From Chloroflexota bacterium (GTDB lineage Bacteria; Chloroflexota; Anaerolineae; Anaerolineales; Villigracilaceae), in the NCBI GenBank assembly GCA_005778035.1, contig SXKT01000044.1:1-51654 (forward strand): a DNA stretch of 51,654 nt. The letters run 5' to 3'. Shown piece by piece: positions 8,132 through 51,375 of the stretch (positions are counted from its first letter, which is position 1; the number at the start of each line of letters is the position of its first letter). The notes under the pieces were generated by a model that was given only the letters and a program-made list of their open reading frames with translations, was not told where the DNA came from and searched no databases. Both the position numbers and the translations under genes were made by a program.

Positions 8132-9037
8132 TTACTTTCCGGTTTGAAGGATAAAGGCAATGCTAATGAACATCAGGATGGTAGTAATCAGGTTGGACGA
8201 CCAAACCATTTTGGCTAAAAATTTTTGGCCTGCTGATTGGTATGCCATAATGCCAAACATGAAGGCAAGAACGCTGACTACTGTGCTGATGGATGGCAAA
8301 AGGAACAATTGCTGTGATGGCACCGGATCCTCTGCCATGACATTTAATGAAGGCACCAGGCGGAGCGTGGAGAACGCGGGAACAATGAAATAGACAGCAA
8401 TGAAAAAAACCAGGTTGAGCAAGATGTTGGCCAACCACAAATAGCGGTTGGAAACCTCGCTCCATGCATCTATCATTACAAAATTTAACTTATGTGAACC
8501 ACCGCCGCTTTGGTCCAATGAACCCATTTCAAAAATGCGCGCAAATGCTTCCATAAAACCGGCAGGGTCAGCAGGTGATATTGCGAACACTTTTTTTGCC
8601 GTTCCCACAAAAACAAGGTTATCTCTGTCACTGGCTACGTATTCCACCAAGCCAAGTTGAGTGTCTTGAACTTCACCCAAGTTACCGCCGGGCAAGTAAA
8701 AACGGGGGCTTGCGACGGGTTCGTTTAAACTGGAAATATGTTTGATCCAGTCGATATCCGACAGAGGGATCATCTCTCGCCGATATCCCCATTCGATGGT
8801 CAAGATATCACGGTCTACCAGGTAGGTAGCCTTGGCCAAGCCAAAAAAACGAAAACCAAGGAATGAAATTGCCCCCCCACATGACAAAACAGTGATAATG
8901 AGGAACGGGATAATAAGGCTTGTGGCCCCAATAGCAAGCCAATAAACAGATGCCAAAAACCCGGCTGTGAATAAGAAAAGCAAGGACAAGTGAAAGGCAA
9001 TTCCGGTTTGTTTTCCCGGTGGAAATTCGTGGATCAT
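8132..9037 (-). CDS. membrane protein with bacterial PH-like domain
   Basis: 301 residues: two N-terminal membrane helices (about 15-65), a beta-rich segment, and three C-terminal helices from about 200. The middle part (YLVDRDILTIEWGYRREMIPL and the continuation to FAISPADPAGFMEAF) has the look of a bacterial PH (bPH) domain, where a strand is followed by an I-P-L-x-D-I-x-W pattern. The biochemical role is unknown. The start ATG lies three bases upstream of the DegT-gene stop (ATGA overlap), so it is translationally coupled inside the bactofilin operon. It is probably a scaffold or sensor at the membrane, but this is inference. Confidence 0.6.
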   Translation of the reverse strand: MIHEFPPGKQTGIAFHLSLLFLFTAGFLASVYWLAIGATSLIIPFLIITVLSCGGAISFLGFRFFGLAKATYLVDRDILTIEWGYRREMIPLSDIDWIKHISSLNEPVASPRFYLPGGNLGEVQDTQLGLVEYVASDRDNLVFVGTAKKVFAISPADPAGFMEAFARIFEMGSLDQSGGGSHKLNFVMIDAWSEVSNRYLWLANILLNLVFFIAVYFIVPAFSTLRLVPSLNVMAEDPVPSQQLFLLPSISTVVSVLAFMFGIMAYQSAGQKFLAKMVWSSNLITTILMFISIAFILQTGK

Positions 9038-10200
9038 CCAGGCAATTCCTGTTTTAATACATGGCAGACATACTCAACCTGACCTTCGGTCATGATGCCG
9101 CTAAAGGGCAAGGCGATTCCGCGGTTGCCGAGGTCCTCGGTGATTGGGTAATCGCCATCTTTGTATCCAAACCGCTCAACCATATAGGGTTGAAGGTGGA
9201 TGGGCAGAAAATAGGGCCGGACAGGTACGCCATGTTTTTCCAGCCTGGCCACCAATCCAGCGCGATTGATCTTGCTGTCAAGCCTGATCACGAACACAAA
9301 CCAAGACATACGTGTTGTCTCAGGGACGATGACCGGCAATTCAATTCCAGGGGTATTGATGAGGTGCTTGATGTACCAATTGGCAACTTGTTCCCGTTGG
9401 GAGATCAATTGGTCCACCCGCGATAATTGGCTTATGCCTAATGCGGCCGAAAGCTCATCTAACCTATAGTTGTAACCCATGTAAGTGTGGCTAAGCCAAG
9501 TATCTCCTGGCGCGCGGCCCTGGTTTCTAAGAGCACGCATTAGAGTAGCGGCTTTTTCATCATTTGTGATCACGACCCCGCCTTCACCAGTGGTGATCTG
9601 TTTGTTGGGGTAAAAAGCGAATACGCCAAACTTGCCAAATAAACCTGCTTTTTTGGATCGATATTCTGCGCCTAATGCCTCACAGGAATCCTCAATGACT
9701 TCCAAATCGTATTCGCGGGCGATTTCACCGATCGCGTCGTAATCAGCTGGTTGGCCAAATACATCAACAGGCAAGATCGCCTTAAGCTTGCCGTTGCCGC
9801 TGTTCTTGCGCGGCAACCATTTATCAGTTTTTCCATTGCGCAAATCCATGGCGGCTTGGCGCAATTGTGCCACATCAATGTTGCCTGTTTGCGGGTTTAC
9901 ATCCACATAGATGGGAGTGATGTTCTCGAAGAGCAAGGCGTTGGTGCTGGCGACAAATGAGAATGGGGTCGTCAGGACGCGGTCTCCGGGCTTCAAACCT
10001 GCTGCAATGGCTGTAAGATGCAAACCAGCAGTTCCGGAATTTACCGCGATCGCGTGTTTTGCGCCAACGTAGGTTGCTAACGCGTTTTCAAACGCTACCA
10101 CCTTGGGACCAAGGCTAAGGATCGGTGTGCGAATTACTTCCAATACGGCACTGATATCTTCTTCATTGATGTCGGGCGAGGACATAGGGATCTTTACCAT
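9034..10200 (-). CDS. DegT/DnrJ/EryC1/StrS aminotransferase
   Basis: 388 residues, normal for this fold-type-I PLP family. The key residues are present: the SGTAGLH phosphate-binding turn at about 55-61, the pyridine-nitrogen Asp171 in VIEDSCEALG, and the internal aldimine Lys200 in FYPNKQITTGEGG. The dimer-contributed segment GYNYRLDELSAALG is also present. These enzymes usually transaminate nucleotide-linked keto-sugars for cell-surface glycans. The nearby glycosyltransferases fit that role, though no sugar-nucleotide dehydratase is in the window. The start overlaps the ProRS-like gene by 7 nt and the stop overlaps the PH-like gene by 4 nt, so all three are made as a coupled set. Confidence 0.92.
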   Translation of the reverse strand: MVKIPMSSPDINEEDISAVLEVIRTPILSLGPKVVAFENALATYVGAKHAIAVNSGTAGLHLTAIAAGLKPGDRVLTTPFSFVASTNALLFENITPIYVDVNPQTGNIDVAQLRQAAMDLRNGKTDKWLPRKNSGNGKLKAILPVDVFGQPADYDAIGEIAREYDLEVIEDSCEALGAEYRSKKAGLFGKFGVFAFYPNKQITTGEGGVVITNDEKAATLMRALRNQGRAPGDTWLSHTYMGYNYRLDELSAALGISQLSRVDQLISQREQVANWYIKHLINTPGIELPVIVPETTRMSWFVFVIRLDSKINRAGLVARLEKHGVPVRPYFLPIHLQPYMVERFGYKDGDYPITEDLGNRGIALPFSGIMTEGQVEYVCHVLKQELPG

Positions 10201-11423
10201 TTACGGGGCTCCATTAGTGCGATGATCTGGGGTAAAAGGGTTGCTAACTGGATGAAACTACTCTCGGCACTCCCTCTCAATTTTACTTCCACCTCATTGT
10301 TGGTCAAACCCCGTTCGCCAACAGTGATCCGGATGGGCAATCCGATCAGATCCGCGTCGTTGAATTTGATGCCCGCCCGCTCGTTGCGGTCATCAGCAAG
10401 GGTGGCAATATTGGCAGCAATCAGTTCCTCATAAATTGCGCGCATCGCGATCGCTGTGTCGATTGTGCTGCCAGGAATGTTCATCAGGTAAACATCATAA
10501 GGGTTTATGCCTAATGGAAACCTCAAACCTTTATCGTCTGAATTGGTTTCTGAAAGGTACAGCAACACTTCGTAACTGCGCAATTGGCCATTTTGTATCA
10601 CTTCGAAAGCCTGTTGGGTTTGGGTTGGGGCATGGCAGTTGGGGCAAATTGTACCTTCATTCGGCAAAACCACATCGGCTACTATATTTGGCAGATAATC
10701 TCTTCCACACATGGTGTTCACCAAGTGGTGGTCCACCTTGTTGGCGCCTGCCACCAAATTTGGGCATCCATCGACAGCATGATCTGCGATCACAAGCCCT
10801 TTAACATTCCCAATTGGTGATGCATAGCCGGGAACCGCGCCTGCGGCAATGATCTCTTCAATGGTTGCCATGCGTACATCACCAACGAGGTTTTTTAGTT
10901 TTGCCTCGCTTAGGGTTTGGTCTCCTCGAATGGTGACGATAATGAACTTGCCATTAGAGGTGCTGGTAAACATTAGTGCTTTTGATGTTTGGGACGTTTG
11001 GATGCCAAGATAATTGGCCAATCCCGCGATCGTATCGCAGTTTGGGGTATATACAATTTGGGGTGCTTTGGGTTGGGTTTGGTTGTGGTTCGGCTGCTCA
11101 ATCGGGAAGATCTCAAAACGGTCGGAAAAGTGGCACTTTGTACAGACGGTTAACCGAACCGGCCCGATGGGATGAGCCAAAAAAAAACTACCTGGCTTTT
11201 GGTTGCCAACCAAGCCTGGAAAAGTAGCAGCCACAGTTTGATGCAATGCCTGGCTGGGTACAGTCAATTTTGCTTCAATGTGTTGGGTGGCGAGCTTGCC
11301 AAGCATGGTAAGGCTTTTGTCGCGGTGCAAGTAGCCCGCCCGATACAATAAAGAAATTCCGGGAGATTTAAACTCGGCCGGAGCAGTCCGGGAGGTTTGG
11401 ATCTGCAGATCGATGAAATTCAT
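10194..11423 (-). CDS. ProRS-derived editing protein without aminoacylation core
   Basis: 409 residues in one intact frame, compared with about 570 for bacterial-type prolyl-tRNA synthetase. Residues 25-53 (LLYRAGYL onward) resemble the ProRS N-terminus. Class II motif 2 and the surrounding catalytic core are missing. Residues 91-110 (CTKCHFSDRFE) match the segment that normally precedes the inserted domain. Residues about 124-265 are a complete YbaK-like INS editing domain with Lys148, a GYASP loop (199-203) and PNLVAGANKVDHHLVN. After it, the motif 3 (GIG..R) region is missing. Residues about 300-385 form the anticodon-binding domain (GINPYDVYLM, DDRNERAGIKFNDADLIG). It should therefore hydrolyse mischarged tRNA (probably Ala-tRNAPro, inferred) but cannot charge tRNA. 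It is coupled to bactofilin (4 nt) and to the DegT gene (7 nt). Confidence 0.85.
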   Translation of the reverse strand: MNFIDLQIQTSRTAPAEFKSPGISLLYRAGYLHRDKSLTMLGKLATQHIEAKLTVPSQALHQTVAATFPGLVGNQKPGSFFLAHPIGPVRLTVCTKCHFSDRFEIFPIEQPNHNQTQPKAPQIVYTPNCDTIAGLANYLGIQTSQTSKALMFTSTSNGKFIIVTIRGDQTLSEAKLKNLVGDVRMATIEEIIAAGAVPGYASPIGNVKGLVIADHAVDGCPNLVAGANKVDHHLVNTMCGRDYLPNIVADVVLPNEGTICPNCHAPTQTQQAFEVIQNGQLRSYEVLLYLSETNSDDKGLRFPLGINPYDVYLMNIPGSTIDTAIAMRAIYEELIAANIATLADDRNERAGIKFNDADLIGLPIRITVGERGLTNNEVEVKLRGSAESSFIQLATLLPQIIALMEPRKW

Positions 11424-11854
11424 GTTTGGGATTCAGGTGTTATTGGTGGGTTACTGGTTTCCAGCTTAAGATCCACTTTTTCTTCCATCGTCATGCGTCC
11501 CCGAAGAAAAGCGCCATCTTCGGTGACGAAAGAGGTGGTTAATACATCGCCCCAAATTCGGCCCGTTGCGCGTATCTCCAACTTGTGTGTGGTAATGTTG
11601 CCTTTTACGGTGCCAGCAACGATCACCGTGGCGGCGCGAAGGTTTTCACATGTAACCTTGCCGCTTTCTCCAACCACCAATAATCCCTGTAATTGGATCT
11701 GCCCTTCAAACGTGCCTTCGATGCGAACGCCTCCAGATCCAGTCAGGCGGCCTTCCCAAATAAGTCCGGGTCCCAAAATGGAATTTATTCTTTCCATAGA
11801 GGGAATAGAAACTGTAGGTTTGGATGGTTCGATCGGTTCTTTTCGTTTAAACAT
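11420..11854 (-). CDS. bactofilin family cytoskeletal protein
   Basis: 144 residues with a short polar N-terminus, a central region of repeating short beta strands (GRLTGSGGVRIEGTFEGQ, VVGESGKVTCENLRAATV, VAGTVKGNITTHKLEIRATG) and a disordered tail. The repeated G-x-[IV]-x-G pattern is the right-handed beta-helix of bactofilins. These polymerise into nucleotide-free filaments on the inner membrane and often position cell-wall or envelope enzymes. ATG 11854 has AGGATG upstream. The stop overlaps the ProRS-like gene start by 4 nt. This places bactofilin first in a five-gene coupled operon. The promoter is not clear (weak TAAAAT-like hexamer on the minus strand); partial read-through from fabI is possible. 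Confidence 0.88.
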   Translation of the reverse strand: MFKRKEPIEPSKPTVSIPSMERINSILGPGLIWEGRLTGSGGVRIEGTFEGQIQLQGLLVVGESGKVTCENLRAATVIVAGTVKGNITTHKLEIRATGRIWGDVLTTSFVTEDGAFLRGRMTMEEKVDLKLETSNPPITPESQT

Positions 11855-50439: not shown

Positions 50440-50511
50440 GCCGAGGTAGCTCAGCGGCAGAGCAAGCGGCTCATAATCGCTCGGTCGAGAGTTCAATTCT
50501 CTCCCTCGGCA
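50440..50511 (+). tRNA. tRNA with CAU anticodon (elongator Met or Ile2)
   Basis: Complete cloverleaf: acceptor GCCGAGG/CCTCGGC, D-stem GCTC/GAGC, anticodon stem AGCGG/TCGCT (ending in a G-T pair) with loop CTCATAA, T-stem GAGAG/CTCTC with TTCAATT, discriminator A. No CCA is encoded. The first base pair is G-C, which rules out the initiator type. The anticodon arm resembles E. coli ileX (lysidine-modified tRNA-Ile2) about as well as elongator Met, so the amino acid is left open. A stem terminator follows. Confidence 0.95.
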
Positions 50512-50513
50512 CA

Positions 50514-51297: not shown

Positions 51298-51375
51298 CGG
51301 GGCGTGGCGCAGCCCGGCTAGCGCGCTTGCATGGGGTGCAAGAGGCCCTGGGTTCAAATCCCAGCGCCCCGACCA
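51298..51375 (+). tRNA. tRNA-Pro (GGG)
   Basis: Cloverleaf: acceptor CGGGGCG/CGCCCCG, D-stem GCGC/GCGC, anticodon stem CTTGC/GCAAG with loop ATGGGGT (anticodon GGG), T-stem CTGGG/CCCAG with TTCAAAT, discriminator A and an encoded CCA (51373-51375). The C1-G72 pair with A73 is typical of bacterial tRNA-Pro. It is close to YigZ but has its own promoter and terminator. Confidence 0.97.

Follow-up and report, generated by a model that had tools for sequence, protein, structure and literature searches.

The locus and its protein

The stretch of DNA analysed here (the window, 51,654 nucleotides in length) covers positions 1 to 51,654 of contig SXKT01000044.1 in assembly GCA_005778035.1, from a Chloroflexota bacterium of the family Villigracilaceae in the Genome Taxonomy Database (GTDB). 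Its minus strand carries a gene for a 409-residue relative of the bacterial-type (P-type) prolyl-tRNA synthetase (ProRS), in which the INS editing domain and the anticodon-binding domain are well preserved and the aminoacylation core is missing. An earlier reading made from the letters of this DNA (hereafter, the sequence-only reading) had described it as a stand-alone editing protein derived from ProRS, which could read the anticodon of tRNAPro and clear mischarged tRNA without being able to charge it. The features of the locus are listed below. The residue counts refer to an alignment of 37 copies of about 400 residues (short forms), eight intermediates, 15 full-length relatives and the E. 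coli ProRS; two copies with stops at the 390th and 395th codon (L016 and L024, respectively) were left out of the alignments. Frame lengths of relatives are counted from stop to stop unless a start is named, and labels beginning with G, C and L denote genomes, contigs and loci.

10194..11423, minus strand: whole gene, bacterial-type ProRS without core (INS editing and anticodon-binding domains); 409 codons, open, ATG start
11265..11423, minus strand: what remains of the ProRS catalytic domain at the N-terminus (residues 1-53, as far as the beginning of motif 1), aligned with E. coli ProRS and with full-length relatives
11133..11144, minus strand: first CxxC (C94 and C97; CTKC at residues 94-97); both cysteines in 37/37 short forms
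10713..11048, minus strand: INS/YbaK-type aminoacyl-tRNA editing domain, residues 126-237; PF04073 (tRNA_edit), 2.6e-19, 69.9 bits against a cut-off of 25.5
10980..10982, minus strand: K148, equivalent to K279 of E. coli ProRS, the Lys of the INS superfamily; 37/37 short forms, 8/8 intermediates, 15/15 full-length copies
10815..10829, minus strand: GYASP loop, residues 199-203
10725..10727, minus strand: H233, at the position of H369 in E. coli ProRS; His in 37/37 short forms, 8/8 intermediates, 14/15 full-length copies
10635..10646, minus strand: second CxxC (C260 and C263); C260 in 37/37 and C263 in 36/37 short forms
10230..10553, minus strand: anticodon-binding domain of ProRS type, residues 291-398; PF03129, TIGR00409 and ProRS chains of the PDB
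11420..11854, minus strand: bactofilin-family gene, upstream neighbour, with an ATGA overlap at 11420-11423; PF04519, 1.8e-23
9034..10200, minus strand: DegT-type aminotransferase gene, downstream neighbour, with a 7-nt overlap at 10194-10200; PF01041, 5.1e-108
51298..51375, plus strand: tRNA-Pro(GGG), presumed substrate, with C1:G72 and A73, and with G35 and G36 in the anticodon

The intact frame claimed by the sequence-only reading is thus in place, and the two complete domains that it had recognised both score above the curated Pfam cut-offs. For the anticodon domain, HGTP_anticodon (PF03129) covers residues 327-398 (1.2e-13, 51.5 bits against a cut-off of 21), and positions 456-563 of the TIGR00409 model map onto residues 291-398. 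The ProRS-like scrap that it had seen at the N-terminus gives a weak profile match to ProRS residues 1-59 (6.4 bits), yet it aligns with the start of the bacterial ProRS, and its residues M1, T10, R12, P15, G22, L26, R28 and A29 are invariant across 19 sequences. The nearest solved structures are the P-type ProRSs 5znj and 2j3l, with a match that covers the INS and anticodon domains and reaches, for 5znj, 1.1e-39 with the single sequence and 2.2e-69 with the family profile.

The catalytic domain is another matter. No match to the Pfam family tRNA-synt_2b was found in the 409-residue protein at E<=1, a negative result that is meaningful because the full-length relative L047 matches tRNA-synt_2b in the same library at 1.2e-25. 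The bacterial ProRS models of NCBIfam align in two separate stretches that flank the missing core, far under their cut-offs (198 of 558 bits for NF006625 and 139 of 306.7 bits for TIGR00409).

Editing-site residues and the missing synthetase core

All the landmarks of the editing module reported from the letters alone were located, namely CTKC, Lys148, GYASP, ADH (residues 213-215) and PNLVAGAN (221-228). The protein thereby combines a tRNA_edit domain and the conserved Lys of the INS superfamily with the GYASP loop, which we take to be of the type named GxxxP and which the superfamily is also defined by. The Lys is described as strictly conserved in the superfamily and required for deacylation in the part of the literature drawn on here (PMC10164551). 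The editing domain is framed by four cysteines that may bind a metal; C94, C97 and C260 are found in all 37 short forms, and C263 in 36.

The absence of motifs 2 and 3, also asserted beforehand, is confirmed by the alignment, in which the positions of T109, R140, R153 and R450 of E. coli are occupied by gaps or unrelated residues in the window protein. Of the characters that define a P-type ProRS, the protein possesses the INS domain and the HGTP anticodon domain of ProRS type, and it is without the class II core made up of TxE, motif 2 and motif 3. On sequence grounds, the window protein is no synthetase.

Other ProRS, tRNAPro and editing proteins in the genome

The separate proS gene that should accompany such a protein was sought in the window's genome (G000, 64% complete) and an archaeal-type one was found. 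It is a complete ProRS of the archaeal/eukaryotic type (E-type) at C55:2869-4284, with 479 aa and a score above the TIGR00408 cut-off, which comprises the core, the anticodon domain and ProRS-C_1, and no tRNA_edit. This enzyme probably charges tRNAPro in G000, where no P-type ProRS above cut-off was found. The idea that the gene at 10194-11423 is the sole proS of its genome was accordingly rejected. It is the only tRNA_edit match in the incomplete G000; as a candidate for the sole INS protein of these bacteria it was nevertheless rejected, given that 20 of its kin hold 3-7 tRNA_edit matches each.

With regard to the tRNAs, ARAGORN detected in the window only the tRNA-Pro(GGG) and one tRNA-Met (50440-50512). 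Five tRNA-Pro(UGG) genes of kin show the same C1:G72, A73, G35 and G36 as the tRNA-Pro(GGG) of the window.

Conservation within the family

Copies of the gene were surveyed in 150 genomes of the window's GTDB family, a full-span copy being a match in one stretch that starts no later than residue 7 and ends no earlier than residue 383. The orthologues of the same architecture that had been called for were found in 100 of these 150 genomes, and 11 further genomes, G009 with its frameshifted copy among them, gave partial or split matches, several of them at contig ends. Among the 100 short-form genomes, an E-type ProRS scored above cut-off in 91, appeared as contig-end fragments in six and was not found in three, and a P-type ProRS above cut-off was found in none. 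ProXp-ala, as a separate gene, occurs in 35 of the 150 family genomes; it gave no match in 71 of the 100 short-form genomes, nor in the one-contig genomes G008 and G063.

Of 300 short-form pairs, the 12 closest show ratios of nonsynonymous to synonymous substitution rates (dN/dS) between 0.16 and 0.31 (0.16-0.31). The surroundings of the gene are maintained as well: in a comparison of 43 short-form loci, with flanks of unequal length, a bactofilin relative was found in 41 and a DegT relative in 17, and fabI, mpg, a PH-domain gene and DUF92 were recurrent as well. The sequence-only reading had held that the coupled overlaps with the neighbours, both of which are present, prove a functioning gene. 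Function is indeed backed by the conservation, the neighbourhood and the dN/dS values; the overlaps alone are a weak argument. The gene belongs to a conserved family and is no one-off relic, and a pseudogene or assembly artefact was rejected in view of its presence in 100 of 150 family genomes, its constraint and its kept neighbourhood. The searches returned none of the three outcomes named beforehand as contrary to the sequence-only reading (a class II core match, a unique degraded copy, the lack of any other proS), and its interpretation is supported as far as computation reaches.

Stages of core decay (INTERMEDIATES)

Judging from the aligned copies, the loss of the core is a graded series, which runs from an intact P-type ProRS beside an E-type one, through full-size proteins with a broken TxE and pseudo-ProRSs of 514-566 aa, to the form of about 400 aa. 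At its start, a P-type ProRS above cut-off is found in 16 of the 150 family genomes, 12 of which have the E-type gene no more than about 3 kb away on that contig, as in G003:C23, where the two genes occupy 105401-106807 and 106859-108565. Adjacent proS genes of the P-type and the E-type are seen in several Chloroflexota families (G003:C23, G018:C19, G038:C36, G075:C68, G288:C2, G412:C1 and G453:C1), as if the tandem pairing were ancient.

Two of the 15 aligned full-length copies (L059 and L060, from G049 and G018, respectively) have lost the T and the E of TxE and kept the arginines of motifs 2 and 3, with alterations in the wider motif 2 sequence and an E-type ProRS gene nearby. L060 still matches tRNA-synt_2b (1.3e-19), and these two copies may possibly represent the earliest stage of core loss. 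Further along are L066-L073, frames of 514-566 aa from eight genomes in two genera, which are without TxE or motif 2, have a degenerate motif 3 and retain the INS Lys and the anticodon domain. A tRNA-synt_2b match at E<=0.01 was absent from L066, from the Chloroflexus-type L205, from the decayed L198 and from the short orthologues L009 and L087. The one intermediate whose flanks were compared, L063, adjoins the same DegT gene as the short form; no bactofilin gene was found upstream of it in the roughly 790 bases present.

A tree of the INS and anticodon domains (110 rows, 286 columns) groups the short forms with the intermediates of 514-566 aa, at a bootstrap and Shimodaira-Hasegawa-like approximate likelihood ratio (SH-aLRT) support of 97/68 with L215 included, and separates them from the family's full-length copies. 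A single clade made up of the short forms and the intermediates is compatible with the approximately unbiased (AU) test (p 0.55). The idea that the short form descends straight from full-length P-type copies like those in its own GTDB family was considered and is unsupported, as those copies group elsewhere on the tree. Mapping the labels intact and decayed onto the tree requires eight changes, of which five are forced by well supported branches, or six and three, respectively, when L059, L060, L216 and L232 are not labelled as decayed. Such counts do not distinguish gain from loss, but the regain of a lost core is implausible.

Distribution across Chloroflexota

The survey was extended to 400 Chloroflexota genomes, 25 of them from the window's family. 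The family profile matched at 1e-40 in 230 of the 400, an E-type ProRS at 1e-100 in 234 and a P-type ProRS over cut-off in 215. Profile-positive genomes with a weak P-type match (a score weaker than 1e-140) or none numbered 50, and 49 of them had an E-type ProRS; a strong P-type score was found in the other 180 profile-positive genomes, 43 of which had an E-type ProRS. Two copies cut at contig ends were removed from the decayed class: that of G291, which was the sole genome of the 50 to have no E-type ProRS and whose copy retains an intact TxE and motif 2, and that of G163, in which motif 3 is intact. After this removal, all 48 genomes of the decayed class carry an E-type ProRS, 22 of them belonging to the window's family and 26 to others.

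The 26 copies from outside the family were all read at the TxE motif. None holds both the T and the E at the aligned positions, and 22 have a gap at T109; L199 has a TEE triplet one residue off, which may be a remnant. All of the arginines aligned with R140, R153 and R450 are retained in six of the 26, and the INS Lys and His in all 26. Proteins of Chloroflexus type with about 530-540 aa are found among these decayed copies (L203-L207, L255 and L256), and the named L117 is similar. As far as the aligned motifs tell, decay of the P-type core took place several times within Chloroflexota, where the genomes concerned possess another ProRS; this wider pattern is absent from the sequence-only reading.

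Decayed P-type ProRSs that keep the INS and anticodon domains were noted at L103, L117, L120 (partial), L124, L189/L205, L190/L198, L195/L200, L197-L215 and L255-L261, with hosts that include a Chloroflexus sp., an Ardenticatenia and a Thermoflexales. Two P-type matches each and no E-type match were seen in G180, G189, G220, G242, G250 and G414 (f35), of which G180 was the one read.

Proposed function and alternative explanations

The reading that we favour, with a probability of roughly three in four, is that the window protein is a P-type ProRS turned trans-editing factor, which would find tRNAPro via its anticodon and remove misattached alanine. The architecture, the missing core, the conservation and constraint, the co-occurrence with the E-type ProRS and the intermediates of decay are observed, and deacylation, amino acid specificity, anticodon reading, metal binding and geometry are predicted. 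The charging of tRNAPro would have passed to an E-type ProRS without an editing domain, after which the P-type copy would have lost first its synthetase active site and then nearly the whole core, while the INS and anticodon domains stayed. In the present protein, the anticodon-binding domain would grip G35 and G36 of tRNAPro, and the four-cysteine region, together with a short linker, would position the INS domain for the aminoacylated 3' end. There, K148 would seat A76, and the misattached amino acid, most likely alanine, would be hydrolysed. The factor would thus be trans-acting, its target being the Ala-tRNAPro that leaves the E-type enzyme.

The joint retention of two domains finds an explanation in the E. 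coli enzyme, the INS domain of which depends on the anticodon domain. In the excerpts of Das et al. on which we draw (PMC3973320), the E. coli INS domain has no intrinsic tRNAPro recognition and relies on the anticodon domain reading G35/G36. Editing drops 9- and 20-fold upon mutation of G35 or G36 to C; changes in the acceptor stem are immaterial, and a tRNAAla with the anticodon loop of tRNAPro is deacylated (PMC3973320). An INS domain without its own recognition of tRNAPro, once freed from the synthetase, needs either a new recognition of the acceptor stem or a kept anticodon domain, and the window protein looks like the second of these solutions.

For the phylum as a whole, we consider it likely that a P-type ProRS repeatedly became an anticodon-reading trans-editing enzyme after another ProRS, usually of E-type, had taken over charging. 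The window's family would mark the last stage, at which hardly any of the core is left, and its living relatives would represent the steps between.

Several observations weigh against these proposals. Some genomes of the family, G001 and G016 (95 and 98% complete) among them, have an E-type ProRS and no INS-bearing P-type protein, which indicates that the editing factor is dispensable. ProXp-ala, which would be redundant for the proposed job, is also carried by 29 of the 100 short-form genomes, and both G063 and G045 encode YbaK-like proteins, G063 also a ProXp-x-like one. One copy, L083 (G009:C155), is frameshifted near a contig end, by either decay or an assembly error. At the level of the phylum, the presence of an E-type ProRS is insufficient for decay, since 43 genomes keep both types at a strong score. 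Moreover, G180 has an INS-bearing P-type copy (L232) without TxE and a second P-type gene, with no E-type ProRS found. When the co-occurrence of decay and E-type ProRS is corrected for lineage, there remain four independent pairs and no contrary one, too few for significance.

Among the alternatives, the same editing mechanism with a main substrate other than alanine (cysteine, serine, 2-aminobutyrate or a non-protein analogue) is unlikely. Substrates are described as varied among INS-family members (PMC11295145, in the part available), and alanine may be covered by ProXp-ala in the 29 short-form genomes that carry it. Conversely, the other 71 have no ProXp-ala match, G063 and G045 have YbaK-like proteins in addition to the short form, and the domain descends from the INS domain of the bacterial ProRS, which is described as specific for alanine (PMC3973320, in excerpts) and whose K279 and H369 positions are invariant here.

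A role confined to complexes with the E-type ProRS, as its subunit or as a member of a ternary complex, in which the anticodon domain would serve for protein contacts or the hand-over of tRNA, strikes us as decidedly unlikely. It could appeal to YbaK, which is reported to require ProRS for its tRNA specificity (PMC3973320, in the excerpts used), and to the closeness of the P-type and E-type genes in those 12 of 16 family genomes, a hint of joint expression. The short gene, however, lies in the bactofilin neighbourhood, away from the proS locus, and its invariant columns include residues of the bacterial ProRS anticodon domain, as is expected if tRNA is still bound.

More remote is a role other than editing, as a regulator that binds tRNAPro or a factor of the envelope neighbourhood formed by bactofilin and DegT. 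The stable place of the gene beside bactofilin, and often beside DegT and PH-domain genes, speaks for such a role, but the editing site is well kept, and in the rest of the phylum the copies with a decayed core still have both domains, the INS Lys and His being present in each of the 26 read. Least credible is a functionless relic, a slowly decaying copy of the replaced ProRS: the core has indeed decayed, and more than once, the gene is missing in some relatives and the G009 copy is frameshifted, but neutral dN/dS values and random loss of K148 would be expected and are not seen, and the low dN/dS, the conserved neighbourhood, the full conservation of the active-site Lys and His (37 of 37 copies) and the presence in 100 of 150 family genomes all disfavour it.

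Relation to known systems

In the threonine system of archaea, ThrRS-ed works beside a separate ThrRS devoid of editing, with an editing fold other than INS. This Ser-tRNAThr deacylase is the closest parallel to the favoured reading of the window protein as a trans-editing factor, for it is described as a truncated synthetase without a catalytic site and with editing and anticodon domains (PMC9976931, PMC11295145 and PMC10018355, each in part), an organisation that the window protein shares. The window protein is bacterial, unlike ThrRS-ed, and it does not belong to that family by homology, since the Ser-tRNA(Thr) hydrolase model NF011500 gives 16.7 of 362 bits, over the anticodon domain.

By descent, the nearest system is the P-type ProRS itself, in which both domains are homologous and the active-site Lys and His are the same, whereas TxE and motifs 2 and 3 are found only in the synthetase, which in E. 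coli has 572 residues instead of 409. The Ala-tRNAPro deacylase ProXp-ala shares with the window protein the superfamily, the proposed substrate and trans-editing for a ProRS without editing. Bacterial ProXp-ala differs in having one domain and reading the acceptor stem (PMC3973320, in excerpts), whereas the window protein carries an anticodon domain; the acceptor-stem elements by which ProXp-ala recognises tRNAPro, G72 and A73, are both found in the tRNA-Pro(GGG) of the window. An additional domain is not in itself without precedent, because a plant ProXp-ala with an extra C-terminal domain and fusions of ProXp-ala and ProRS in some eukaryotes are mentioned in the available part of PMC11295145. 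The Cys-tRNAPro deacylase YbaK is of the same domain family and YbaK-like genes coexist with the short form in the two kin examined, but the window protein is not a YbaK (TIGR00011, 17.9 bits against a cut-off of 153). Its second domain also sets it apart from the trans-acting INS members YbaK, ProXp-ala, -x, -ST1, -ST2, -7, -8 and -9, which are described as single-domain proteins.

A further parallel is found in the ThrRSs T1 and T2 of Anabaena, where one paralogue proofreads in trans for the other, as proposed here; T1, however, is described as a full synthetase that switches roles under zinc starvation, whereas the core of the window protein is deleted (PMC4787780, in part). A review of duplicated synthetases gives ProRSx for ProRS in the sections used (PMC9437257). 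No description of a ProRS without core and with an anticodon domain was recognised among the papers listed by searches of the open-licence PMC literature. Taken together, these comparisons suggest a protein that is ThrRS-ed-like in function, a P-type ProRS by descent and outside the named trans-editing families of the INS superfamily.

If this is true, the proline system gains a counterpart of the archaeal ThrRS-ed, and a trans-editing branch with an anticodon domain joins the INS superfamily, described as single-domain outside ProRS. The graded series, from intact through TxE broken and pseudo-synthetase to core excised, would show a route from synthetase to proofreader, and a general one, along which a synthetase that has been displaced lives on by proofreading for its successor. 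How anticodon recognition is signalled over about 70 A to the INS site is posed as a question in the excerpts of PMC3973320. With most of the intervening core gone, 409 residues may suffice for this communication, and the question becomes testable.

A few minor observations concern carriers and annotation. The company of mpg, fabI, bactofilin, DegT, PH-domain and DUF92 genes in which the gene recurs (L009-L037 and L087-L100) is an unexpected one for an editing factor. PADLOC returned nothing. The named carriers L087-L100 are metagenome-assembled genomes labelled as Anaerolineales, Anaerolineae, Anaerolineaceae, Anaerolinea or just Chloroflexi. Given how the NCBIfam models match, proteins without the core may run the risk of being annotated as proline--tRNA ligase. 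In a plasmid search with 65 matched records, four of the five examined were annotated as proline--tRNA ligase and one was unannotated.

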